Below are positions 21,484-46,373 of a DNA stretch of 64,000 nucleotides, in pieces. Source of the DNA: Maribacter orientalis (GTDB lineage: Bacteria > Bacteroidota > Bacteroidia > Flavobacteriales > Flavobacteriaceae). Under the pieces are notes generated by a model that worked only from the letters and a program-made list of their open reading frames with translations, searched no databases and had not been told where the DNA came from. Each line of letters starts with the position of its first letter. Position 1 is the first letter of the stretch. The position numbers and the translations under genes were made by a program. Where the stretch lies: NCBI RefSeq assembly GCF_900109345.1, contig NZ_FNZN01000002.1:558001-622000 (forward strand), read 5' to 3'.

Positions 21484-23382
21484 ATGAGTGACGCTATTAA
21501 GCATGAATGTGGTATTTCAGTAATACGGCTATTAAAGCCATTAGAGTATTACAAAGAAAAGTACGGAACAGCATTTTATGGTGTAAATAAAATGTATTTG
21601 ATGATGGAAAAGCAGCACAATCGAGGTCAAGATGGTGCAGGTTTCGCAAGCATTAAATTAGATGTAAAAGCAGGCGAGCGATACATGAGCCGTGTTCGTT
21701 CTTGCCAACAGCAACCAATACAGGATATTTTTGCCCAAATCAATGATCGCATTAATAACGAGCTCAAAGAACATCCTGAATACGAAGATGATGTTGCATT
21801 GCAAAAAAAGTACATTCCTTATATAGGTGAATTACTTTTAGGACATGTACGGTATGGTACTTTTGGCAAGAACAGCATTGAAAGTGTTCACCCCTTTATA
21901 AGGCAGAACAATTGGATGCACCGTAACCTTATTGTTGCTGGTAACTTCAACATGACCAACGTACATGAATTGTTCGACAATTTAATTCAGTTAGGACAGC
22001 ATCCTAAAGAAATGGCTGATACCGTCACTGTGATGGAGAAAATCGGTCACTTTTTAGATGATGCAGTTGCCAAACTATACAAACAAATAAAAAAAGAAGG
22101 TTATACAAAACAACAAGCGTCTCCTATCATTGCCGAGCGTTTAAAGGTTTATAAAATATTACGAAGAGCTGCAAAGAATTTTGATGGTGGCTATGCTATG
22201 GCTGGTTTGTTAGGTCATGGGGATGCTTTCGTATTACGAGATCCAAGCGGAATTAGACCAGCTTATTATTATAAAGATGATGAGGTTGTCGTAGTTGCAT
22301 CAGAAAGACCTGCTATACAAACAGTATTCAACGTGCCTTATGAGGAGGTAAAAGAACTTGATCCAGGTGCAGCCATCATAATTAAGAAAAATGGAACTAG
22401 TTCTATTAAACAAATTCTTGAGCCAAAAGAACGAAAAGCATGTTCTTTTGAACGCATCTATTTCTCTAGAGGTAGTGACAAAGAAATTTATCAAGAGAGA
22501 AAAGCCTTAGGTAAATTAGTTTTTCCTCAAATTCTAGAAGCTATTGATGAAGATATCAAGAATACGGTATTTTCATATATCCCAAATACAGCAGAAACTT
22601 CTTTTTACGGAATGGTAAAAGAGGCACAAAACTATTTGAACAAGAAAAAAGAAGAACAAATACTAGAATTAGGACCAAAAATTACGGGCGAGCAATTACA
22701 TGAAATATTAGAGGTTCGACCACGTATTGAAAAAGTTGCCATTAAGGATGCCAAACTACGAACCTTTATAACACAAGACAGCAGTAGAGACGATTTAGTT
22801 GCGCATGTTTATGACATATCATATGGTTCTGTAAATAAAGGTGACAATCTCGTAATCATAGATGATAGTATTGTTAGAGGCACGACCCTTAAAAAAAGTA
22901 TTTTAAGAATATTAGACCGACTATCACCAAAGAAGATAGTCGTTGTTTCCTCTGCGCCTCAAATCAGGTACCCAGATTGTTATGGTATTGATATGGCCAA
23001 ATTAGAAGACTTTATTGCATTCAAGGCAGCTTTAGCATTACATGAAGACCATAATTCAATGCACATTGTCGAAGAGATTTATAAAAAATGTTTGACTCAG
23101 GTACAGAGTAAGGACAAAGATGTAGTGAATTATGTAAAGGATTTCTATGCGCCATTTTCTGCGAAACAGATTTCAAAGAAAATAGGAGAGCTATTGAGTC
23201 CGGACGGTATTAATGCTGAAGTAACTATAATCTATCAGACAATTTCGAGCTTACACAAAGCTTGTCCTAAAAATTTAGGAGATTGGTATTTTACTGGAAA
23301 CTACCCCACCCCGGGTGGAAATAGGGTTGTTAACAGAGCTTTCATAAATTTTTATGAAGGAAATAACGAACGAGCATATTAA
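21484..23382 (+). CDS. purF: Amidophosphoribosyltransferase (PurF-like, long Bacteroidota form)
   Basis: Makes phosphoribosylamine from PRPP and glutamine, the committed step of purine synthesis. The nucleophilic Cys at residue 9 (HECGISVIR) would become N-terminal after removal of an 8-residue propeptide. The glutaminase domain includes NRGQDGAGFASI and LLGHVRYGTFG. The PRTase domain has the PRPP loop VIIDDSIVRGTT (about 458-469). At 632 residues it is about 130 longer than the B. subtilis or E. coli enzymes; the extra sequence includes an insert in the glutaminase half and a C-terminal extension. This long form is typical of Bacteroidota. A terminator sits just upstream, and the small RNA array begins about 100 bp downstream. 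Confidence 0.93.
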   Translation: MSDAIKHECGISVIRLLKPLEYYKEKYGTAFYGVNKMYLMMEKQHNRGQDGAGFASIKLDVKAGERYMSRVRSCQQQPIQDIFAQINDRINNELKEHPEYEDDVALQKKYIPYIGELLLGHVRYGTFGKNSIESVHPFIRQNNWMHRNLIVAGNFNMTNVHELFDNLIQLGQHPKEMADTVTVMEKIGHFLDDAVAKLYKQIKKEGYTKQQASPIIAERLKVYKILRRAAKNFDGGYAMAGLLGHGDAFVLRDPSGIRPAYYYKDDEVVVVASERPAIQTVFNVPYEEVKELDPGAAIIIKKNGTSSIKQILEPKERKACSFERIYFSRGSDKEIYQERKALGKLVFPQILEAIDEDIKNTVFSYIPNTAETSFYGMVKEAQNYLNKKKEEQILELGPKITGEQLHEILEVRPRIEKVAIKDAKLRTFITQDSSRDDLVAHVYDISYGSVNKGDNLVIIDDSIVRGTTLKKSILRILDRLSPKKIVVVSSAPQIRYPDCYGIDMAKLEDFIAFKAALALHEDHNSMHIVEEIYKKCLTQVQSKDKDVVNYVKDFYAPFSAKQISKKIGELLSPDGINAEVTIIYQTISSLHKACPKNLGDWYFTGNYPTPGGNRVVNRAFINFYEGNNERAY

Positions 23383-23487
23383 ATAAATCTTCGATGAAAT
23401 ACCTAAGTTTTACGCATTTCATCGTCAAAAAATGTATTTCACCGATAGAATAGTCGAATTGAACTAACCAGCTTTACTTTTAAACTT

Positions 23488-23559
23488 ACCATAGCATAAG
23501 TAGGTTAAGTTCATGGTAAGATTTGGGGCAAAAAAGGTGGAGGTTTCTCCACCTTTTTT
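23488..23559 (+). ncRNA. Small RNA gene, array copy 1
   Basis: About 72 nt. The -7 element TACTTTTA lies at 23475-23482, 5 nt before the core. The core (CCATAGCATAAG... to TTTGGGG) can close on itself through ACCAT/ATGGT around a 20-nt loop. The terminator stem is GGTGGAG/CTCCACC extended by A/T pairs. The terminator sequence differs from copies 2-4 while keeping pairing. Confidence 0.82.
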
Positions 23560-23686
23560 ATTTTTTACATTTTCCTAAAAACAATACTCTTTCACATAAT
23601 TACTCTTGTTTGTTCTCTTAAACGTTATTACAGGAAGTTTAACCATTACCTTTTATATTCATCATATACAGCCTTACTTTTGAAGA

Positions 23687-23756
23687 ACCATAGCATAAGT
23701 AGGTTAAGTTCATGGTAAGATTTGGGGAAAAAGACGGGGCTATGCTCCGTCTTTTT
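23687..23756 (+). ncRNA. Small RNA gene, array copy 2
   Basis: About 70 nt. Perfect -7 element TACTTTTG at 23675-23682, 4 nt before the core. Core identical to copy 1 over about 40 nt. Terminator stem GACGGGGC-TAT-GCTCCGTC, then T5. Confidence 0.85.
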
Positions 23757-23878
23757 ATTTTGCACCTTATTTAGAAAAAAAATAATTGAACTTAGAGCAA
23801 TAATAGTATTACAACCAATGTTCGGGGAGTTGAACGGAAAGCTTTCTCTAAAACCTAAACTACACATATATTTGAAGG

Positions 23879-23947
23879 ACCATAGCATAAGTAGGTTAAG
23901 TTCATGGTAAGATTTGGGGAAAAGACGGGGCTATGCTCCGTCTTTTT
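23879..23947 (+). ncRNA. Small RNA gene, array copy 3
   Basis: About 69 nt. Perfect -7 element TATATTTG at 23867-23874, 4 nt before the core. Same core and terminator as copy 2, with one A fewer between TTTGGGG and the stem. That indel would break any reading frame, which supports a non-coding product. Confidence 0.85.
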
Positions 23948-24077
23948 ATTTTACGCCTCCTTAGCTTCTCTTATCCAAAAAGAATATTCAATAAAAACCA
24001 TATAGTATTACAACCGTTGTTCAGGAAGTTCAACGGAAACCTTGCATAAAAACATCAACTACCTATATATTAGCAGG

Positions 24078-24147
24078 ACCATAGCATAAGTAGGTTAAGT
24101 TCATGGTAAGATTTGGGGAAAAAGACGGGGCTATGCTCCGTCTTTTT
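24078..24147 (+). ncRNA. Small RNA gene, array copy 4
   Basis: About 70 nt. -7 element TATATTAG at 24066-24073 with TTG at 24042-24044 (21-bp spacer), 4 nt before the core. Core and terminator as in copy 2. Confidence 0.85.
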
Positions 24148-24283
24148 ATTTTATACCAATCGGGTTATCTACCCACACATAAGCTATATTAATAACTACC
24201 TGAAATTCAACTTTTACTAAATTAAAGTTATTTTTTTCTTAAAATTTCTTTTTTTATTTACTCAATACCAGTAATTTAGTCTT

Positions 24284-24355
24284 GCCATAGCATAAGTAGG
24301 TTAAGTTTATGGTAAGATTTGGGACGAAAAGGGTGGAGACTTCTCCGCCCTTTTC
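24284..24355 (+). ncRNA. Small RNA gene, array copy 5 (divergent terminator)
   Basis: About 72 nt. -7 element TAATTTAG at 24272-24279, 4 nt before the core. The core differs by GCCATAG for ACCATAG (outer A-U becomes G-U) and TTTATGG for TTCATGG (adds an A-U pair), so both changes preserve or strengthen the closing stem. Terminator GGGTGGAG/CTCCGCCC is unlike copies 2-4 but still paired. Confidence 0.83.
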
Positions 24356-24365
24356 TATTTTAAAC

Positions 24366-24436: not shown

Positions 24437-25045
24437 CTATTTGTTACTTGCATAAAGTTTAGACACTTCATCCCAATTGATGATGTTGAAAAATGCTTCA
24501 ATATAATCAGGTCTTCTATTTTGATAATGAAGGTAGTAAGCGTGTTCCCATACATCTATACCTAAAATTGGGTGACCACCACATCCTACGCCAGGCATAA
24601 GTGAGTTATCTTGGTTAGGTGTAGAACATACTTCTACTTTACCGCCTTTATGAACGCATAACCATGCCCAACCAGAACCAAATCTAGTTCCTGCTGCTGT
24701 AGTAAACTTATCTTTAAATGCATCAAAAGAACCAAAGGCACTATCAATAGCTGTAGCCAATTCGCCACTTGGCTTACCTCCGCCGTTTGGTGATAAAATT
24801 GTCCAGAATAAAGAGTGGTTGTAAAAACCACCACCGTTATTTCTAACAGCTGCATTATTCATATCTAAACCAGTTAAGATATCTTCAATTGATTTTCCTT
24901 CAAGATCAGTACCTTCTATAGCGGCATTTAACTTGGTAGTATATCCGTTATGATGTTTTGTATGATGTATTTCCATTGTCCTCGCATCTATATGTGGCTC
25001 AAGAGCATCATATGCGTAAGGCAATTTCGGTAGTTGAAAAGCCAT
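24437..25045 (-). CDS. sodA: Superoxide dismutase (Fe/Mn family, Mn-like)
   Basis: Converts superoxide to hydrogen peroxide and oxygen in the cytoplasm. 202 residues without a signal peptide. Metal ligands are the first His of HHTKHHNGY, His in FYNHSLFW, and Asp/His in [20 protein letters not shown]. The NQDNSLM segment places the outer-sphere Gln as in manganese enzymes rather than the iron type; metal use remains an inference. Monocistronic: its own terminator downstream, and a -7 element (TAACTTTG, minus strand) 37 bp upstream. Confidence 0.96.
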
Positions 25046-38221: not shown

Positions 38222-40483
38222 CTAGCTATTGTTCGAAGGATTGTTTAGAAATGGTTGGTGATAATATCGTTCTCCGGTTGCTTTATACATTGCATTGGCG
38301 ACCGCGGCAAATGTGGGTGGAAAAGAAGGTTCTCCCAACCCCGTTGGGTCTATATCACTTTTTACAAAATGAATGTCAATCTCCTTTGGTGCTTCGGTCA
38401 TACGTATCATTCGATAGCTATCGAAATTACTTTTTTGGGGTACACCTTCCTTAAAGGTCTGTTCACCATATAAGGCATTTCCAATGCCATCTACAATGCC
38501 TCCTTCACACAAATTGATAGCAGCATCAGGATTTATTACAATCCCACAATCAATGGCACAGGTAACTTTTTTAATAACCGGTTTGTCATTTTCCCATTTC
38601 ATATCCAATACTTGAGCGGCATATGAATTATGACAGAAATACGCTGATACTCCTCTAGATAGTCCTTCAAAGTTCTCATCCCAATTCGATTTTTCCTTCA
38701 CTAATTTTAAAACTCCTGCATAACGTTCGGCATCATAATCATTTCGTTCTCCAACGGGATTGTTTTTTGCTTGTTCTAACAACTCCAATCTAAAATCGAT
38801 AGGATCTTTTCCTGTGGCTTCTGCCACTTCATCTAAAAAAGACTGTTCTGCACTTGCCATAAAATTAGAGCGTGGTGCTCTAAAAGAACCTATAGTAATG
38901 TTAGAATTTATTTCCCAGCTTTCTGCCAAATAATTAGCAACGGCTCCAGCAGGAAATCTATCTGCATACAAAGGACTCTCAGGTATTCCTCCTGCGTTTA
39001 CATGAAACGCGGTAATATTATGATCTGCATCGAGCGCAGCCCTATACTTTACTTGATAAGCGGCCCGATAAATACCACCGGTCATGTCATCTTCACGTGA
39101 ATAGACCAATTTTATGGGTGCTTTCACCTTTTGTGAAATTATTGCCGCTTCAATTAACCAATGTGCATAAGACCTACGTCCATAGCCACCACCCAAACGG
39201 GTCATTTGAATGTCTATGTTTTCAATGGGCATACCCAATCGTTCCGAAATGGCGTGCTCTGTAAGTTCTGGTTTTTGTAACGGTCCTTTAAGTTCTGCTT
39301 TGTCTGCCGTAACATTAGCGAAAAAGTTCATAGGCTCCATGCAGTTGTGAGCCAAAAATGGTGCTGTGTAGATGCGTTCAACAATTTTAGTGGCATTTCT
39401 AAAAGCCCTTTCCGGATTACCGTCTTTACGAACTTCCTTTGCTTTTTTAGATGTCATAGCAGCCATCATAGCCTTATGTTCTTCTGAGTTTTCTAACCCA
39501 GCAGGAATAGTCAATATTTGTTTAGGTCCACTATAGGGCTGCCTTTCCTCTGTATAGGTTTCAAAAGGTTCCCACTCAATTTTAATAGCTTTTTTGGCAT
39601 TCATTATCTGCCAAGTTGTATCGCCTACAATGACAACAACTTCTAAAAAAGTACACGTATCAAAATGCTGTCTTTCATAATCATCTTCAAGCACCTTTAT
39701 CGGAAAAACATCGCGAATACCAGGCATCGATTTTATTGCTGCATCATCTACAGATTTAAATTTTAAACCAAATGCTGGTGGATGAACAATCATTGCTGTT
39801 AGCATACCTTCTTCGTAGGTATCAATACTAAAAAGAGGTTTGCCTGTTACTATATTAAGGCCGTCTACATTCTTTTTAGAAGTACCAATAATTTTAAAAT
39901 CATTGATTTCTTTCAGTTCTACTTCTTCTGGAACGGGAATTTTTGCGGCCGCTGATGCAATTTCACCATAACCCATAGATCGGTCACTTGAACCATGTTT
40001 TAAAATACCCGTTTCCGTAGTAATTTCAGATGCCGGTACTTGCCACTTTTCGGCCGCAGCAGCCATTAGCATATGCCTTGCCGATGCCCCTGCCATTCTT
40101 AAGCCTTCCCAACCTCTACGTATGGCTTGGCTTCCACCTAAAAACTGAAAGTTAAAGGAGTCAGTATCTAATGATGCTTGTTCAACAATAACATGTTCCC
40201 AATCTACATCCAATTCATCGGCCACGATCATGGGCATGGAAGTCTTTACGTTTTGGCCACCTTCCGGATTTGGGGACATGATGGTTACCTTGCCATTCTC
40301 GCCAATTTTCAGATAAGCATTGATCTCAAACCATTCTTTTGGCAATTCATCGGCAACCATGTTCGACGCTTGGTCAGGTTTACAAGAATTCAAAAAACTA
40401 AATCCCAGCACAAGACCTCCTCCTGCCAAACTAGTGTTTTTTATAAACGACCTTCTCCCTATTTTCGTTTTTACTACCGACAT
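38222..40483 (-). CDS. Molybdenum hydroxylase large subunit (xanthine dehydrogenase/IorB-like), paralog 1
   Basis: Molybdopterin-binding catalytic subunit that would hydroxylate an aldehyde or N-heterocycle. 753 residues. Twin-arginine signal GRRSFIKNTSLAGGG ending in a Cys (FLNSC), so exported folded and possibly lipid-anchored. Mo-site regions RMGGGYGRRSYAH-like (TRLGGGYGRRS), GSFRAPRSNFMASAEQSFLDE, and the active-site Glu in GLGEPSFPP (about 715) are present. The nearest small subunit is at 42776-43243, upstream of paralog 2, so it is probably the third gene of that operon (16 bp after paralog 2). Substrate unknown. Confidence 0.9.
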   Translation of the reverse strand: MSVVKTKIGRRSFIKNTSLAGGGLVLGFSFLNSCKPDQASNMVADELPKEWFEINAYLKIGENGKVTIMSPNPEGGQNVKTSMPMIVADELDVDWEHVIVEQASLDTDSFNFQFLGGSQAIRRGWEGLRMAGASARHMLMAAAAEKWQVPASEITTETGILKHGSSDRSMGYGEIASAAAKIPVPEEVELKEINDFKIIGTSKKNVDGLNIVTGKPLFSIDTYEEGMLTAMIVHPPAFGLKFKSVDDAAIKSMPGIRDVFPIKVLEDDYERQHFDTCTFLEVVVIVGDTTWQIMNAKKAIKIEWEPFETYTEERQPYSGPKQILTIPAGLENSEEHKAMMAAMTSKKAKEVRKDGNPERAFRNATKIVERIYTAPFLAHNCMEPMNFFANVTADKAELKGPLQKPELTEHAISERLGMPIENIDIQMTRLGGGYGRRSYAHWLIEAAIISQKVKAPIKLVYSREDDMTGGIYRAAYQVKYRAALDADHNITAFHVNAGGIPESPLYADRFPAGAVANYLAESWEINSNITIGSFRAPRSNFMASAEQSFLDEVAEATGKDPIDFRLELLEQAKNNPVGERNDYDAERYAGVLKLVKEKSNWDENFEGLSRGVSAYFCHNSYAAQVLDMKWENDKPVIKKVTCAIDCGIVINPDAAINLCEGGIVDGIGNALYGEQTFKEGVPQKSNFDSYRMIRMTEAPKEIDIHFVKSDIDPTGLGEPSFPPTFAAVANAMYKATGERYYHQPFLNNPSNNS

Positions 40484-40499
40484 CTAAATTGTATTTGTT

Positions 40500-42770
40500 T
40501 TATCCTATCAATGGTGGCTTATCTGTAATAAATGGTTGATGGTAATGTCTTTGTCCCGTAGCTTTATAAAGTGCATTTGCCAAGGCCCCCATAATTGGTG
40601 GAAAAGGTGGTTCACCCATTCCTGTTGGGTCAATTTCGCTTTGAACGAAATGTGTCTCTATTGATTTTGGCGCCTCTTTATGTCTAATTAATCGATAACG
40701 ATCAAAATTGCTTTGTTCGGGCATTCCATCTTTAAAAGTTAGACCACTGTACATGGCATGACCAATTCCGTCAATCACCCCTCCCTCGGATAAATTGGAG
40801 GCAGCATCTGGGTTCACTACGATACCACAATCTATTGCAGCGGTAACCTTTTGAACGACTGGCTTATTGTTCTCCATAACTATATCCAATACCTGGGCCA
40901 CATAACTTTGATGACAGAAATAGGCAGAAACACCTCTATGTACACCAGATTCGGTTTGTTTCCAATTCGATTTTTCACGTACCAATTCTAAAACCCCGGC
41001 GTAACGGGCAGCATCATAGTCGTTAGATTCTTTTTCTCCCACAGGATTTTCCTCTGCACGTTTCAATAACTCTAATCTAAAATCGATTGGATCCTTGCCC
41101 ATTTCCTCAGCCACCTCATCTAAAAAGGATTGTTCTGCACCTGCGATGAAATTAGACCGTGGCGCTCGAAATGCCCCAGTTGTAATATTCGAATCAACAG
41201 TAAAATCTTCAGCCAAATAGTTATCAATAGCACCGGCAGGAAAACGATTTGCAAAAAGTGGACTTTCTGGTATGCCCCCTGCTTTTACATGAAAAGCTGT
41301 TAACTTATTATCTGCATCGAAGGCAGCCCTATACGTGGCATAATATGCAGGGCGATAAATACCTTGGGTCATATCATCTTCACGGCTATACACCAATTTT
41401 ACCGGTGCACTCATGCGTTTAGAAATGGCAGCAACCTCTACCATAAAATGACCATATAACCTTCGCCCAAAACCACCACCTTGGCGTGTCATTTGAATAT
41501 CTATTTTTTCTAATGGAAGTCCTAAAACTTCTGAAACGGCAGACTCCATCCATTCCGGAGTTTGGGTGGGACCGAGTAACTCTGCATGATCCTCTGTAAC
41601 ATGGGCAAAGAAATTCATGGGTTCCATGGTATTATGCGCCAAGAAAGGACAACTATAGCTACGCTCAATTATTTTAGCGGCACTTTTAAAAGCAGCTTCA
41701 GGGTTACCATCTTTACGTGCTACTTTGGCATTGAGACCTGTCAATTCTTTTAATTTAGCAGTGTGACTCTCTGAATTTTCCATGCCAGCAGGGAAGGTAA
41801 CTTTCATGTCGTTACCGAACATGGTCATGGTATCAGTAATATCCGCATTGTTTTCCCACTCTATTTTCAAGGCCTTTTTAGCTTGAAATACTTGCCAAGT
41901 ACTGTCACCAACAACTACGACCAATTCATTAAAAGCCGTAAAATGGAAAGCCATTTTTTTGTAGTCGTCATCATATAGTTTTATGGAAAAAACATCACGT
42001 ATACCCGGCATTTGTTTAGCGGCCTCCGCATCAAATGACTTCAACTTCATGCCAAAGGCCGGCGGGTGTACCAACGATGCTATCAACATGCCCTCTCGCT
42101 GAACATCTAATCCAAATAAAGGTTTGCCTGTAACTATCTTTTTACCATCTACATTTTTTCGGGATGTACCGATTATGGAGAAATCCGATATTTTCTTCAA
42201 TTCTACTTCTTCAGGTACTTCTATTTTAGAAGCTGCCGATGCCATTTCACCATAGCCAGCAGAATTTCCACTTGCTTCATGTGAAAGAATCCCAGCTACT
42301 GCAGTAATTTCTTCAACCGGTACTTGCCAAGCCTTAGCAGCTGCTTCTTTTAGCATTTGGCGAGCTGTAGCGCCTGCCATTCGAAGATTTTCCCAAGAAC
42401 TACTGATTGACCTACTACCACCTGCAACCTGCCAACTATAAAGGCTGGTATTAAGAGGAGCTTGTTCAACTACGACATTTTTCCAATCAACCTCCAATTC
42501 ATCTGCCACGATCATAGGCATAGATGTCTTAACATTTTGGCCAATTTCAGGATTCGGCGACATAATCGTAACCACCCCGTTATCGCCTATTTTTAAATAT
42601 CCATTGATTTCATACCACTCTTTCGGCATTTCTATTTCTATTGCCAGTGCCTCGGCAACTTTTGGTTTACAAGAATTTAACCAACTGAATCCAAGTACAA
42701 GCCCTCCACCGGCAAGGCTGCTATTCTTTATAAAAGCGCGTCTTCCTAATTTTGTTTTTATATGAGTCAT
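40500..42770 (-). CDS. Molybdenum hydroxylase large subunit, paralog 2
   Basis: 756-residue relative of paralog 1 with the same layout: Tat motif GRRAFIKNSSLAGGG and lipobox-like SWLNSC, Mo-binding TRQGGGFGRRLYGH, GAFRAPRSNFIAGAEQSF, and active-site Glu in GMGEPPFPP. It starts 5 bp after the [2Fe-2S] gene, the natural two-subunit arrangement of IorAB-type enzymes, which pass electrons to cytochrome c or quinone rather than NAD. The C-terminal HYHQPF ... TDKPPLIG is shared with paralog 3, so paralogs 2 and 3 look closest to each other. Confidence 0.9.
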   Translation of the reverse strand: MTHIKTKLGRRAFIKNSSLAGGGLVLGFSWLNSCKPKVAEALAIEIEMPKEWYEINGYLKIGDNGVVTIMSPNPEIGQNVKTSMPMIVADELEVDWKNVVVEQAPLNTSLYSWQVAGGSRSISSSWENLRMAGATARQMLKEAAAKAWQVPVEEITAVAGILSHEASGNSAGYGEMASAASKIEVPEEVELKKISDFSIIGTSRKNVDGKKIVTGKPLFGLDVQREGMLIASLVHPPAFGMKLKSFDAEAAKQMPGIRDVFSIKLYDDDYKKMAFHFTAFNELVVVVGDSTWQVFQAKKALKIEWENNADITDTMTMFGNDMKVTFPAGMENSESHTAKLKELTGLNAKVARKDGNPEAAFKSAAKIIERSYSCPFLAHNTMEPMNFFAHVTEDHAELLGPTQTPEWMESAVSEVLGLPLEKIDIQMTRQGGGFGRRLYGHFMVEVAAISKRMSAPVKLVYSREDDMTQGIYRPAYYATYRAAFDADNKLTAFHVKAGGIPESPLFANRFPAGAIDNYLAEDFTVDSNITTGAFRAPRSNFIAGAEQSFLDEVAEEMGKDPIDFRLELLKRAEENPVGEKESNDYDAARYAGVLELVREKSNWKQTESGVHRGVSAYFCHQSYVAQVLDIVMENNKPVVQKVTAAIDCGIVVNPDAASNLSEGGVIDGIGHAMYSGLTFKDGMPEQSNFDRYRLIRHKEAPKSIETHFVQSEIDPTGMGEPPFPPIMGALANALYKATGQRHYHQPFITDKPPLIG

Positions 42771-42775
42771 AGCTA

Positions 42776-43243
42776 TTATGTATTTTGGTTTATATTGGCT
42801 GCCATTTTAACGGCTTTTTTAATTCTAGTATAGGTACCACAACGACAAATATTTCCGTTCATGGCCCCTTCAATCTCTTCATCGGAAGGATTCGGATTTT
42901 TCTTTAAAAATGCCGAAGCGGTCATTATCTGTCCGGCTTGGCAATAACCACATTGAGGCACATCAATCTCTAACCATGCTTTTTGCACAGGATGGTCCCC
43001 ATTTTCTGAAAGTCCTTCAATGGTCGTTATATCTTGCTCACCCACAGCAGAAATAGGTAATTGACATGAACGTACCGCATTCTCACCCAAGTGAACGGTA
43101 CATGCACCGCATTGTGCAATACCGCAGCCGAATTTTGTGCCTACCAATTTAATGTGGTCGCGTAAGACCCACAGCATCGGAGTAGTTGGGTCGACCTCAA
43201 TTTCGTGAGTTTTTCCGTTAATTTTTAGATTGAAGTTTGCCAT
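42776..43243 (-). CDS. [2Fe-2S] small subunit of molybdenum hydroxylase (IorA-like), copy A
   Basis: 155 residues carrying both iron-sulfur clusters: plant-type ferredoxin Cys at 40, 45, 48 and 60, and the helical-domain cluster Cys at 98, 101, 133 and 135 (CGYC and CRC). It has no signal peptide and would be exported by hitchhiking with the Tat-tagged large subunit. First gene of the operon small subunit, paralog 2, paralog 1, PQQ dehydrogenase. It is nearly identical over most of its length to copy B at 45800-46264, far more similar than the large subunits are. Confidence 0.95.
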
Positions 43244-43444
43244 GATATTTTAGTTTAAATAAAGACTGATTTAAGTTACAAATTTTATAGGGTTTATAAT
43301 TTTAAAACCCATTGTATGTTGTTAATTTTTATATAGTTTTTGAATTTTCATTCCGGCTATATATCCTCCTGAAATTTTTTCCATTTTTTCTTTACCCATC
43401 ACTTCCATAAATCAGTTTCAATGTCTTTTTCTATCAAAATCAGA

Positions 43445-43468
43445 ATATATATATATATATATATATAT
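43445..43468. repeat. (AT)12 microsatellite
   Basis: Twelve consecutive AT dinucleotides inside the 267-bp gap between the two molybdenum hydroxylase operons, 42 bp beyond the stop of paralog 3. The rest of the gap is AT-rich with no gene. Confidence 0.95.
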
Positions 43469-43510
43469 GGAATTAACTTATTTTCTTACCAAATATTGAT
43501 ACTAGACAAA

Positions 43511-45787
43511 TTACCCTACCAACGATGGTTTATCCGTTATAAAAGGTTGTCTATAATGTCTTCTACCTGTAGCTTTGTACAATGCATTTGCCAAAGCTCC
43601 GAATATCGGCGGAAATGGAGGCTCACCCAATCCAGTTGGGTCCGTATCATTCTCAACGAAATGTACATCAATGGTTTCTGGTGCCTCTTTAAATCGGATC
43701 ATTCGGTAAGTGTCAAAGTTTTTATGGTCTGGAACACCATTTGTAAAGGACATTTCCCCGAACATGGCGTTACCTATGCCATCTACAATGCCACCTTCGG
43801 CCATATTGGTTGCGAAATCGGGATTTATGACAATACCACAGTCGATTGCAGCCGTTACTTTTTCCATTTTTGGCATTTCACTGTCCATAGACAATTCCAA
43901 GACTTGTGCTACATAACTGTTATGGCAAAAATAGGCGGAAACCCCTCTATGGATTCCTGGCTTTTCACTTTGCTTCCAACCTGATTTTTCCTTTACCAAC
44001 TCAAGTACACCGGCATAACGTTCCGCTTCATAGTCATTGTTTTCGCCTACGGGGTTTTTCGCGGCCCTATCGAGCAACTCTAACCTAAAATCAATAGGGT
44101 CTTTTCCCATGGTCTCTGCTAGCTCATCTAAAAAGGATTGTTCTGCACCGGCAATAAAGTTGGAACGGGGTGCCCTAAAGGCACCAATGGTAATATTAGA
44201 TTCCAAAGCCCATCCTTCGGCCAAATAATTATCGATTGCCCCAGCAGGAAAACGGTTCGCCGCGACTGGATGCTCCGGTATTCCACCACCACGTACATGA
44301 AAACCGATTAGGTTATTGTCCTTGTCTAAGGCAGCCCGGTAGGTTGCGGTATAGGTAGGTCTGTAAATACCATAGGTCATATCATCTTCACGAGTATAAA
44401 CCAACTTTACCGGAGCCTTTATTTCTTGAGAGATTACAGCTGCCTCTACAAGATGGTGACCGTATGCCCTTTGGCCAAAACCGCCCCCCATTCGGGTCAG
44501 GTTTATATGAATGTTTTCTTCCGGAAGTCCCAACCTAGCTGCCAAAGTACCAGAAATAAGCTCAGGAGCCTGAGTCGGTGCATAGAGCACTGCTTCTTTC
44601 TCGGTCACATGTGCAAAGCAATTGACGGGTTCCATACAGTTATGGGCCAAATAGGGAGCTGTATAGGTTCGCTCTAGAACCTTGTCAGCATTTAGGAACG
44701 CCTCTTCCGGATTACCGTCCCTTCTTAGAACATTCCCTTTTTTCAAGGACATTTCCTTCATTTTTTCATTATGTTCCTCGGTACTTTCAAGTCCGGCTGG
44801 TACTTTAATCGTGGTTTTACCTCGAAAACCGGCCATCACAAATTCGGAATCCGAAATTTCTTCCCATTCCATTCGTAGCGCTTTTTTTGCCTGCATTACT
44901 TCCCATGTACTGTTTCCTACTACTACCGCTATTTTGGTATGGGTAGTGGTGTCAAAAAAGTTACGCTCATAATCATCCTGTAAGGTTTGTATGGTAAATA
45001 CATCCTTTATTCCTGGCATAGATTTAGCAACCGAGTCATCTACAGATTTAATCTTCATACCAAAAGGTGGAAGTGCTATCATTGCGACCAACATCCCTTC
45101 CTCTTGCAAGTCCATGGTAAAGAGTGGTTTTCCAGTGACAATATTTTTGGTGTCTACATTTTTTTTTGAAACACCGACTATTTTAAAGTCACTCACCGCT
45201 TTTAAAGGTACTTCTTGCTCCTCGGGTATGGTAATGTCCTTGGCTAAGGATGCCAATTCACCGTAACCTATTTCCTGCCCAGTGGTTTTATGATAAACAG
45301 TTCCGTTATTTGTGGTTAATTCATTCACAGGAACATTCCATTGCTGTGCAGCGGCCATTAATAACATTTGACGGGCCGTGGCGCCAGCTACCCGAAGTCC
45401 AGGCCATCCCGTGCGAATCCCTTGACTACCTCCGGTAAATTGCCTATCAAATTTTTCAGGATGGAAATTAGCCTGCTCTATCAAGACCATTTTCCAATCT
45501 ACATCCAATTCCTCGGCCAATATCATGGGTAGGGAAGTTTTTACATTGGAACCGAATTCCGGATTAGGTGCCATCAAAGTCACCACACCATTTTCTCCAA
45601 TTTTAATATAGCTGTTGAATTCTGACCATTCCTTGGGCATTTTCAGAGCCAACTCCATTTCCTTTTCAGGTACTGCCTTGGGCTTGCAAGAATTCAACCA
45701 ACTGAAACCAATGATCAAACCTCCACTGGCCAGGCCTGTATTCTTAAGAAATGCTCTTCTTCCTATCTGTGTTTTTACGTGTGTCAT
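43511..45787 (-). CDS. Molybdenum hydroxylase large subunit, paralog 3
   Basis: 758 residues, the same family as its two neighbours. Tat signal GRRAFLKNTGLASGG with SWLNSC; Mo-site TRMGGGFGQRAYGH, GAFRAPRSNFIAGAEQSFLDE, and active-site Glu in GLGEPPFPPIFG. The predicted cofactor-binding Arg-Arg of paralog 2 (GFGRRLYGH) is Gln-Arg here (GFGQRAYGH), one of several differences that could change substrate choice. It lies 12 bp after small subunit copy B, forming its own two-gene operon upstream of the other set. Confidence 0.9.
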   Translation of the reverse strand: MTHVKTQIGRRAFLKNTGLASGGLIIGFSWLNSCKPKAVPEKEMELALKMPKEWSEFNSYIKIGENGVVTLMAPNPEFGSNVKTSLPMILAEELDVDWKMVLIEQANFHPEKFDRQFTGGSQGIRTGWPGLRVAGATARQMLLMAAAQQWNVPVNELTTNNGTVYHKTTGQEIGYGELASLAKDITIPEEQEVPLKAVSDFKIVGVSKKNVDTKNIVTGKPLFTMDLQEEGMLVAMIALPPFGMKIKSVDDSVAKSMPGIKDVFTIQTLQDDYERNFFDTTTHTKIAVVVGNSTWEVMQAKKALRMEWEEISDSEFVMAGFRGKTTIKVPAGLESTEEHNEKMKEMSLKKGNVLRRDGNPEEAFLNADKVLERTYTAPYLAHNCMEPVNCFAHVTEKEAVLYAPTQAPELISGTLAARLGLPEENIHINLTRMGGGFGQRAYGHHLVEAAVISQEIKAPVKLVYTREDDMTYGIYRPTYTATYRAALDKDNNLIGFHVRGGGIPEHPVAANRFPAGAIDNYLAEGWALESNITIGAFRAPRSNFIAGAEQSFLDELAETMGKDPIDFRLELLDRAAKNPVGENNDYEAERYAGVLELVKEKSGWKQSEKPGIHRGVSAYFCHNSYVAQVLELSMDSEMPKMEKVTAAIDCGIVINPDFATNMAEGGIVDGIGNAMFGEMSFTNGVPDHKNFDTYRMIRFKEAPETIDVHFVENDTDPTGLGEPPFPPIFGALANALYKATGRRHYRQPFITDKPSLVG

Positions 45788-45799
45788 GGATTCAGTTTT

Positions 45800-46264
45800 T
45801 TAGGATAATTCACTATTTGCGGCCATTTTCACGGCTTTCTTAATTCTTGTATAGGTACCACAACGACAAATATTTCCGTTCATGGCTCCTTCAATCTCTT
45901 CATCGGAAGGATTCGGATTTTTCTTTAATAATGCCGAAGCAGTCATTATCTGTCCAGCTTGGCAATAACCACATTGAGGCACATCTATCTCTAACCATGC
46001 TTTTTGCACAGGATGATCCCCATTTTCTGAAAGCCCTTCAATAGTGGTTATATCTTGATCACCCACAGCAGAAATAGGTAATTGACATGAACGTACCGCA
46101 TTGTCGCCCAAGTGTACGGTACATGCACCACATTGTGCAATACCGCAGCCGAATTTAGTGCCTACCATGTTAAAATGATCTCGTAAGACCCATAGCATCG
46201 GAGTAGTTGGGTCGACCTCTATGCTTTTAGTAGTTCCGTTAATTTTTAAAGTAAATGTTTCCAT
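45800..46264 (-). CDS. [2Fe-2S] small subunit of molybdenum hydroxylase (IorA-like), copy B
   Basis: About 154 residues. Start taken at ATG 46264 ([10 protein letters not shown]), with ATG 46270 two codons upstream as an alternative. All eight cluster Cys are conserved as in copy A. From the segment [11 protein letters not shown] to the C-terminal KKAVKMAAN the two copies differ at only a few residues, while their N-termini (about 20 residues) and last few residues differ. It pairs with paralog 3. Confidence 0.95.
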
Positions 46265-46373
46265 GATCATATAATATTCAAGGTTTGTATCAAGTTAATA
46301 ATTTATTTAGTTGGGTCGATTATAAAACTGGTCTATTTGAGAAAAAAAACAATGTTAAATCTCTTATTATCAG

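Follow-up and report, generated by a model that had tools for sequence, protein, structure and literature searches.

What are the five near-identical repeats that lie between purF and sod in Maribacter orientalis? They were examined within a window of 64,000 nucleotides (assembly GCF_900109345.1, contig NZ_FNZN01000002.1, positions 558,001 to 622,000 of the forward strand), for which a preliminary description had proposed an amplified family of small RNAs, with -7 boxes at a fixed distance from the core. Five tandem promoter–RNA–terminator units are indeed present on the plus strand at 23475–24357, in the purF–sod gap. Their cores start at 23488, 23687, 23879, 24078 and 24284 (spacing 199/192/199/206), 4-5 nt separate each -7 box from its core, and every unit closes with a 12-13 bp hairpin followed by a T run. 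The terminator stems of copies 1 and 5 have other sequences, yet all of them pair, as the same description had it. The locus is composed as follows.

21484..23382, plus strand: purF (amidophosphoribosyltransferase), conserved flank upstream of the array (ORF; TIGR01134 match below the equivalog cutoff; synteny)
23418..23444, plus strand: direct repeat TTCATCG-N13-TTCACCG, 20-bp period, at about -69/-49 of unit 1 (position and spacing statistics, 193 class A/B units)
23475..23482, plus strand: -7 box TACTTTTA of unit 1 (logo; flavobacterial TAnnTTTG consensus)
23488..23562, plus strand: sRNA unit 1, class A, i.e., the first copy, GGGGCAAAAAAGG
23530..23559, plus strand: intrinsic terminator hairpin of unit 1
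23675..23682, plus strand: -7 box TACTTTTG of unit 2
23687..23757, plus strand: sRNA unit 2, class B
23810..23836, plus strand: direct repeat TACAACC-N13-TTGAACG of unit 3, 20 bp period (position and spacing statistics)
23867..23874, plus strand: -7 box TATATTTG of unit 3
23879..23948, plus strand: sRNA unit 3, class B
24009-24035, plus strand: similar direct-repeat pair belonging to unit 4
24066..24073, plus strand: -7 box TATATTAG of unit 4
24078..24148, plus strand: sRNA unit 4, class B
24119..24147, plus strand: intrinsic terminator hairpin of unit 4
24231..24279, plus strand: class C promoter, A/T tracts followed by near-invariant CAATACCAGTAATTTAG, without direct repeat (logo, 49 class C promoters)
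24272-24279, plus strand: -7 box TAATTTAG of unit 5, within the class C promoter
24284..24357, plus strand: sRNA unit 5, class C, i.e., the last copy, adjoining sod; GTTTATGG, TTTGGGACGAAAAGGG
24326..24355, plus strand: intrinsic terminator hairpin of unit 5
24437..25045, minus strand: sod, superoxide dismutase (Mn/Fe type), conserved convergent flank (ORF; NCBIfam; synteny)
GTAGGTTAAGTTCATGG: sRNA stretch, probe sequence for the predicted ~70-nt transcript

A sixth copy of class C type is located beyond the window, near a contig end of the same genome (G000:C15:736689-736764).

Judged by comparison of genomes, the repeats are copies of a ~70-nucleotide sRNA gene found between purF and sod in most Flavobacteriaceae, although its transcription has not been shown. 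We put a probability of roughly 0.8 on the reading that it encodes a multicopy trans-acting sRNA which recognises its mRNAs by two-site pairing and represses translation of surface proteins. The units, the family, its synteny and the conserved paired complementary sites can be read from the genomes themselves; that the units are transcribed, that duplexes really form, that the effect is repression and not activation, and what purpose it serves are all inferred, as there are no expression or genetic data.

The predicted RNA has at its 5' end a hairpin (ACCAU...AUGGU) whose loop reads GUAGG; a single-stranded linker, GAUUUGGGG, follows, and the terminator completes it. All five copies have a folding energy far below that of shuffled sequences (z -4.2 to -4.4; none of 200 as low). 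The earlier suggestion that a 20-nt loop and the tail are both unpaired holds for the tail linker GAUUUGGGG only, since the loop is partly paired and the MFE fold leaves just the apical GUAGG free. Two core changes in copy 5, previously taken for covariation, do keep the closing stem paired, but they are not compensatory: A->G converts the closing A-U pair to G-U and C->U adds one A-U pair, both being one-sided, consistent changes. Within the genus, no two-sided change was found at any core pair, only one-sided, pair-preserving ones. Family-wide, two-sided changes occur at 9 of the 11 hairpin pairs (shuffled mean 0.4), and the pairing of the 5' hairpin is maintained in 99.4% of cells of an alignment which was fitted to the covariance model and therefore leans towards it.

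That covariance model, built from 29 units and proposed in the preliminary description together with a search of other Flavobacteriaceae, matches 318 of 397 genomes of the family (197 of 237 genera), with 1–7 copies per genome. Genomes without a match under strict filters are referred to as sRNA-less below. In a wider draw from the order, matches were confined to Flavobacteriaceae except for a marginal one (G052, E 5.6e-4). At least 80 named loci carry the 22-nt core pattern and, among the matches listed, all belong to Flavobacteriaceae or to unnamed Flavobacteriia/Bacteroidota MAGs and single cells; the genera include Maribacter, Zobellia, Aquimarina, Winogradskyella, Salegentibacter, and Flavobacterium. 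Scanning of the whole window with Rfam 15 gave no family at gathering score. Over the array, even E <= 5 yielded only scattered, chance-level, sub-gathering matches, with no row for Flavo-1 (which had been named as a candidate), Qrr or Omr. A literature search found no published description of this RNA. The idea of an sRNA family amplified in tandem is supported: nothing in Rfam matches it, and it is conserved across Flavobacteriaceae. In one genome (G272, L058:816-1196, minus strand) the same purF-sod gap has three additional units in tandem, spaced by about 150 bp. They combine another 5' domain, GACATACATCCGATGCATCTCTCAGCTCCATGATACC, with the same ATTTGGGG and terminator, and may represent a second type of sRNA that uses this tail.

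What could the sRNA recognise? Paired complementary sites are located at start codons: CCCAAAUC upstream, and AACCUACUU or CUUAACCU–AUG at the start itself. The first striking one, CCCAAATCC-N-TAACCTACTT directly followed by ATG, has the right antiparallel order and lies in front of a 125-aa lipoprotein gene of the same Maribacter genome (C11:185767-186141). This gene served as the query of a first, non-circular test, in which orthologs were picked by their protein, with no regard to the site. CCCAAATC and AACCTACTT are retained in all 22 Maribacter orthologs (54-100% identity), including those with a displaced start codon. In a paralogous lipoprotein group (~40-45% identical), the seven members that were read have CCCAAATC with either AACTTAACCT (six) or AACTTAACCC (one), i.e., AACTTAACC(T).

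The second non-circular test used a giant SprB-repeat protein, which in M. orientalis is 2861 aa long. Its match to the SprB repeat stays below threshold (Pfam E 1.6e-5), and a T9SS type B sorting domain is clearly recognised (TIGR04131, 89 bits). Among 21 orthologs with a full-length N-terminus, again found by protein, TTAACCT is immediately followed by ATG (UUAACCU and AUG in RNA) in 20, and CCCAAATC (CCCAAAUC in RNA) is present in 18. Predicted duplexes have a median energy of -29.4 kcal/mol, and for 20 of the 21 no more than 2 of 200 shuffles were as good. Single folds of these 5' UTRs show a hairpin with variable arm sequences, CCCAAA being at its apex or close to it. RNAalifold found no consensus structure in the alignment of the target 5' UTRs because MAFFT misregisters this hairpin. 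The preliminary description had suspected the loop and the TTTGGGG tail of being target-pairing regions, and the complementary sites conserved at start codons of orthologs lend this strong support.

The M. orientalis genome contains several tail-complementary (CCCCAAATC) and loop-complementary (TAACCTACTT) sites just 5' of start codons. As single seeds, CCCCAAATC was commoner than its reversed control (38 vs 11) while TAACCTACTT was rarer (14 vs 40); such counts are weak on their own, and reversed patterns are imperfect controls. Totals for the pattern TAACCTACTTATGD were discarded because it also matched the sRNA copies themselves in genera with ACCATAACATAAG. The bipartite pattern was searched in 120 genomes of 119 genera. 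It was found 118 times in genomes having the sRNA against 58 for the reversed control (p 7e-6), and 14 times against 9 in sRNA-less genomes (p 0.4). With one site per genome sampled, the site was at a start codon in 9 of 22 genomes with the sRNA and in none of 8 sRNA-less ones, a small sample (one-sided hypergeometric p ~0.035). Some genes recur at bipartite sites. The one for the SprB-repeat giant protein does so in 9 genomes of 8 genera among the fetched loci; others code for lipoproteins of several groups, a secreted protein of ~107 aa and a protein of 72-84 aa that has an FGHHY motif.

Six candidates from M. orientalis, which do not come from an unbiased genome-wide target scan, gave duplex energies of -23 to -34 kcal/mol, which 0-1 of 300 shuffled sRNAs equalled in each case. 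Among them are three lipoproteins (-31.4, -30.0, and -27.3 kcal/mol), the SprB-repeat protein (-29.3) and a transglutaminase-like protein. The last has the strongest duplex (-33.5 kcal/mol), with CCCCAAATCTTAGCACTATG in front of its gene (L232:1500, G000:C5:113140, plus strand); conservation of this site was not assessed. These energies leave out accessibility, and part of the pairing region sits in the sRNA hairpin stem. Two first-pass candidates, the OmpA-like lipoprotein L275 and L246, proved weak by duplex energy (z -0.4 and -2.0).

Loci in two further genomes were noted. In genome G164, repeated CCAAATCTA...TAACCTACTTATGA...TCAAATCTACC motifs surround a short ORF (L295:1440-1600, minus strand); this stretch might sequester the sRNA as a sponge or decoy. 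Three loci of the small genome G101 (L396-L398; C2:29596, C4:78278, and C13:91360) have CCCAAATCGATTCTACA..CATGA(A/G)AAACCTA in common, possibly a paralogous target set.

According to the proposed mechanism, the array would supply five near-identical copies of one trans-acting sRNA, each from its own promoter and with its own terminator, and the sRNA would meet an mRNA at two places simultaneously. The predicted partner of the linker/tail GAUUUGGG is the 5' UTR site CCCAAAUC, which the main target presents at the apex of its mRNA hairpin. The sRNA hairpin would open, allowing its loop and 3' strand AAGUAGGUUAAG to pair with AACCUACUU or CUUAACCU beside or over the start codon. Since the start codon would be covered, translation initiation should be blocked. 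Putative targets found so far are mostly exported surface proteins (the SprB-repeat T9SS giant protein, small lipoproteins, other secreted proteins), from which a fast, high-dose shut-down of surface proteins may be inferred as the purpose. Repression itself is not shown; it is plausible from the position of the sites and by analogy with FopS, which in Bacteroides acts at the start codon to block translation.

The pairing could be real and yet activating, for example by opening the 5' hairpin of the mRNA or by shielding the mRNA from decay. Activation by sRNAs is generally known, and the SprB-repeat mRNA does have one of its sites in a hairpin loop. Two protease mRNAs become less abundant in F. 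psychrophilum when another sRNA, Rfp18, is deleted (PMC9723704). However, the mRNA hairpin, which closes well 5' of the start codon, leaves that codon unsequestered, while the second site adjoins or overlaps AUG in most targets. We regard activation as unlikely, though it is the alternative that survives best.

Conservation within the sRNA bears on another possibility. The loop/3' strand UAAGUAGGUUAAGUU and the tail GAUUUGGGG are near-invariant across the family. The 5' strand differs among genera (ACCATAGCATAAG, ACCATAACATAAG, GCCATAAAATTTAAG, ACCATAAACCTAAG) whereas AGTAGGTTAAGTT and GATTTGGGG scarcely change, and this asymmetry suggests a linear recognition function. Such extreme conservation of primary sequence, several copies and a conserved unpaired G-rich linker would also suit an RNA that mainly titrates an RNA-binding protein, as CsrB/RsmZ-like sponges do, with the hairpin and GGGG linker as the protein site and copies raising the dose. 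A protein site need not, however, be matched in both stretches by antiparallel-ordered sites at the start codons of orthologs from many genera, and a chaperone site could coexist with target pairing. Titration as the main function seems improbable, somewhat more so than activation.

Returning to the trans-acting sRNA, its location also speaks for a functional RNA. PurF and/or Sod adjoin nearly all on-locus matches (tblastn), even the weak L092 at 25.8 bits; the strong model matches for which the fetched DNA shows neither neighbour are L005/L028, L031, L032, L077, L088, and L095. A mobile or repetitive element (REP/MITE-like) could account for tandem near-identical copies and the few off-locus ones (the sixth copy in M. 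orientalis; L031, L032, L095), and the preliminary description would have given up the RNA had the core belonged to a known mobile repeat. Dispersed, non-syntenic copies are not what is seen: the array occupies one syntenic gap throughout the family, no match to the core was found in the viral contigs searched, promoters and terminators are individually conserved, and changes preserve pairs. Synteny already contradicts this reading, to which we attach next to no weight. Equally little remains for cis elements (attenuators or leaders) or short-peptide genes: there is a possible ATG within CATGGTAAG, but its frame enters a terminator of variable sequence and length, linker length differs between copies, every unit terminates itself and no same-strand gene follows (sod is convergent).

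Several known systems resemble the purF–sod sRNA. In OxyS-fhlA and RNAIII-rot, single-copy sRNAs contact the mRNA through loops at two sites, one of them at the ribosome-binding region; this two-site recognition is similar, while organisms and sequences are unrelated. OmrA/B are adjacent tandem genes with outer-membrane targets. Qrr, OmrA/B, and LhrC share with our array several near-identical copies and overlapping targets (see also the discussion in PMC11697453), but sequence and taxa are unrelated and the window has no Rfam match to these families. The multicopy paralogous FopS / GibS sRNAs of Bacteroides (RF04319) repress mRNAs of envelope proteins (SusC homologs) beside start codons (PMC11697453). 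Like FopS, the purF–sod sRNA is multicopy (5 + 1 copies), paralogous and self-contained, with a terminator. A further trait of FopS is its binding by RbpB, an RRM-1 protein. FopS has a single-stranded 5' seed followed by a terminator and 14 copies in Bacteroidaceae, whereas the purF–sod sRNA has a structured 5' hairpin, two separate pairing stretches and a tandem single syntenic locus in Flavobacteriaceae. The array reaches only 21.8 bits (E 1.3) with the Rfam covariance model, the cutoff being 56, which rules out membership by sequence. Its conserved start-codon sites are at SprB-repeat protein and lipoprotein genes, not SusC, and unlike those of FopS have no experiment behind them. The Rfp sRNAs of Flavobacterium psychrophilum and the F. 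columnare candidates were detected experimentally and have no Rfam match (PMC9723704, PMC5395568). Rfp18 is described as pairing through a third stem-loop and as having protease targets (PMC9723704), while the purF–sod sRNA is a two-hairpin RNA; those F. psychrophilum and F. columnare sRNAs that were not detailed might include members of its family. Those features of a trans-acting sRNA that can be read from sequence are present: own promoter and terminator, intergenic location without an ORF, and evolutionarily conserved complementarity to mRNAs encoded elsewhere. We take this to be a new family of an already known kind, the multicopy trans-acting sRNAs, and the comparative evidence for its targets is unusually strong.

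Flavobacteria, some of them fish pathogens, play a major part in the breakdown of marine polysaccharides, and to our knowledge few of their sRNAs are functionally characterised. An sRNA present at a fixed locus in about four fifths of the sampled genomes, for which conserved targets can be named and pairing predicted base by base, opens the post-transcriptional regulation of lipoproteins and T9SS surface proteins to direct tests. Recognition of an mRNA hairpin loop together with the start codon may also help to study translation regulation in bacteria without Shine-Dalgarno-led initiation.

Copies appear to differ in control by promoter class. Among 193 class A/B units the repeat TT[CT]A[TA]C occurs at -69 and -49; 89 pairs have a distance of 20 bp, and the next commonest distance (21) has 13. 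The 49 class C units lack this repeat; in them CAATACCAGTAATTTAG hardly varies and lies below phased A/T tracts. The -7 box agrees with TAnnTTTG, the flavobacterial -7 consensus (PMC9723704). The 20-bp-spaced direct repeat is a probable activator site, without binding data, so class A/B copies would probably answer to a regulator binding it, and class C copies would use another promoter type; the functions of class C copies and of the regulator are guesses. A regulon search of the M. orientalis genome with TTYRWC-N14-TTYRWCNAA, a pattern that the window's own copies do not fit, showed no enrichment (8 matches vs 8 in the control). For the factor that binds the direct repeat we considered, purely as an assumption, a LytTR-type regulator. 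In genome G082, a response regulator gene whose product looks LytTR-like at its C-terminus, as judged by eye, has TAACCTACTT immediately 5' of its ATG (L316:1500, plus strand) and is a possible feedback target.

The broadest version of our reading has, we think, even odds. The sRNA would be a core Flavobacteriaceae switch of the cell surface, whose two-point pairing with an mRNA hairpin loop and start codon shuts off SprB-type T9SS giants, lipoproteins and other exported proteins together, while the dose under different signals would be set by the number of copies and by the two classes of promoter, one with the 20-bp direct-repeat activator site and the other with invariant CAATACCAGTAATTTAG.

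Elsewhere in the window, at 38222-46270 on the minus strand, three tandem xanthine-dehydrogenase-like large subunits and two 2Fe-2S small subunits are encoded, apparently duplicated to judge by their ORFs.
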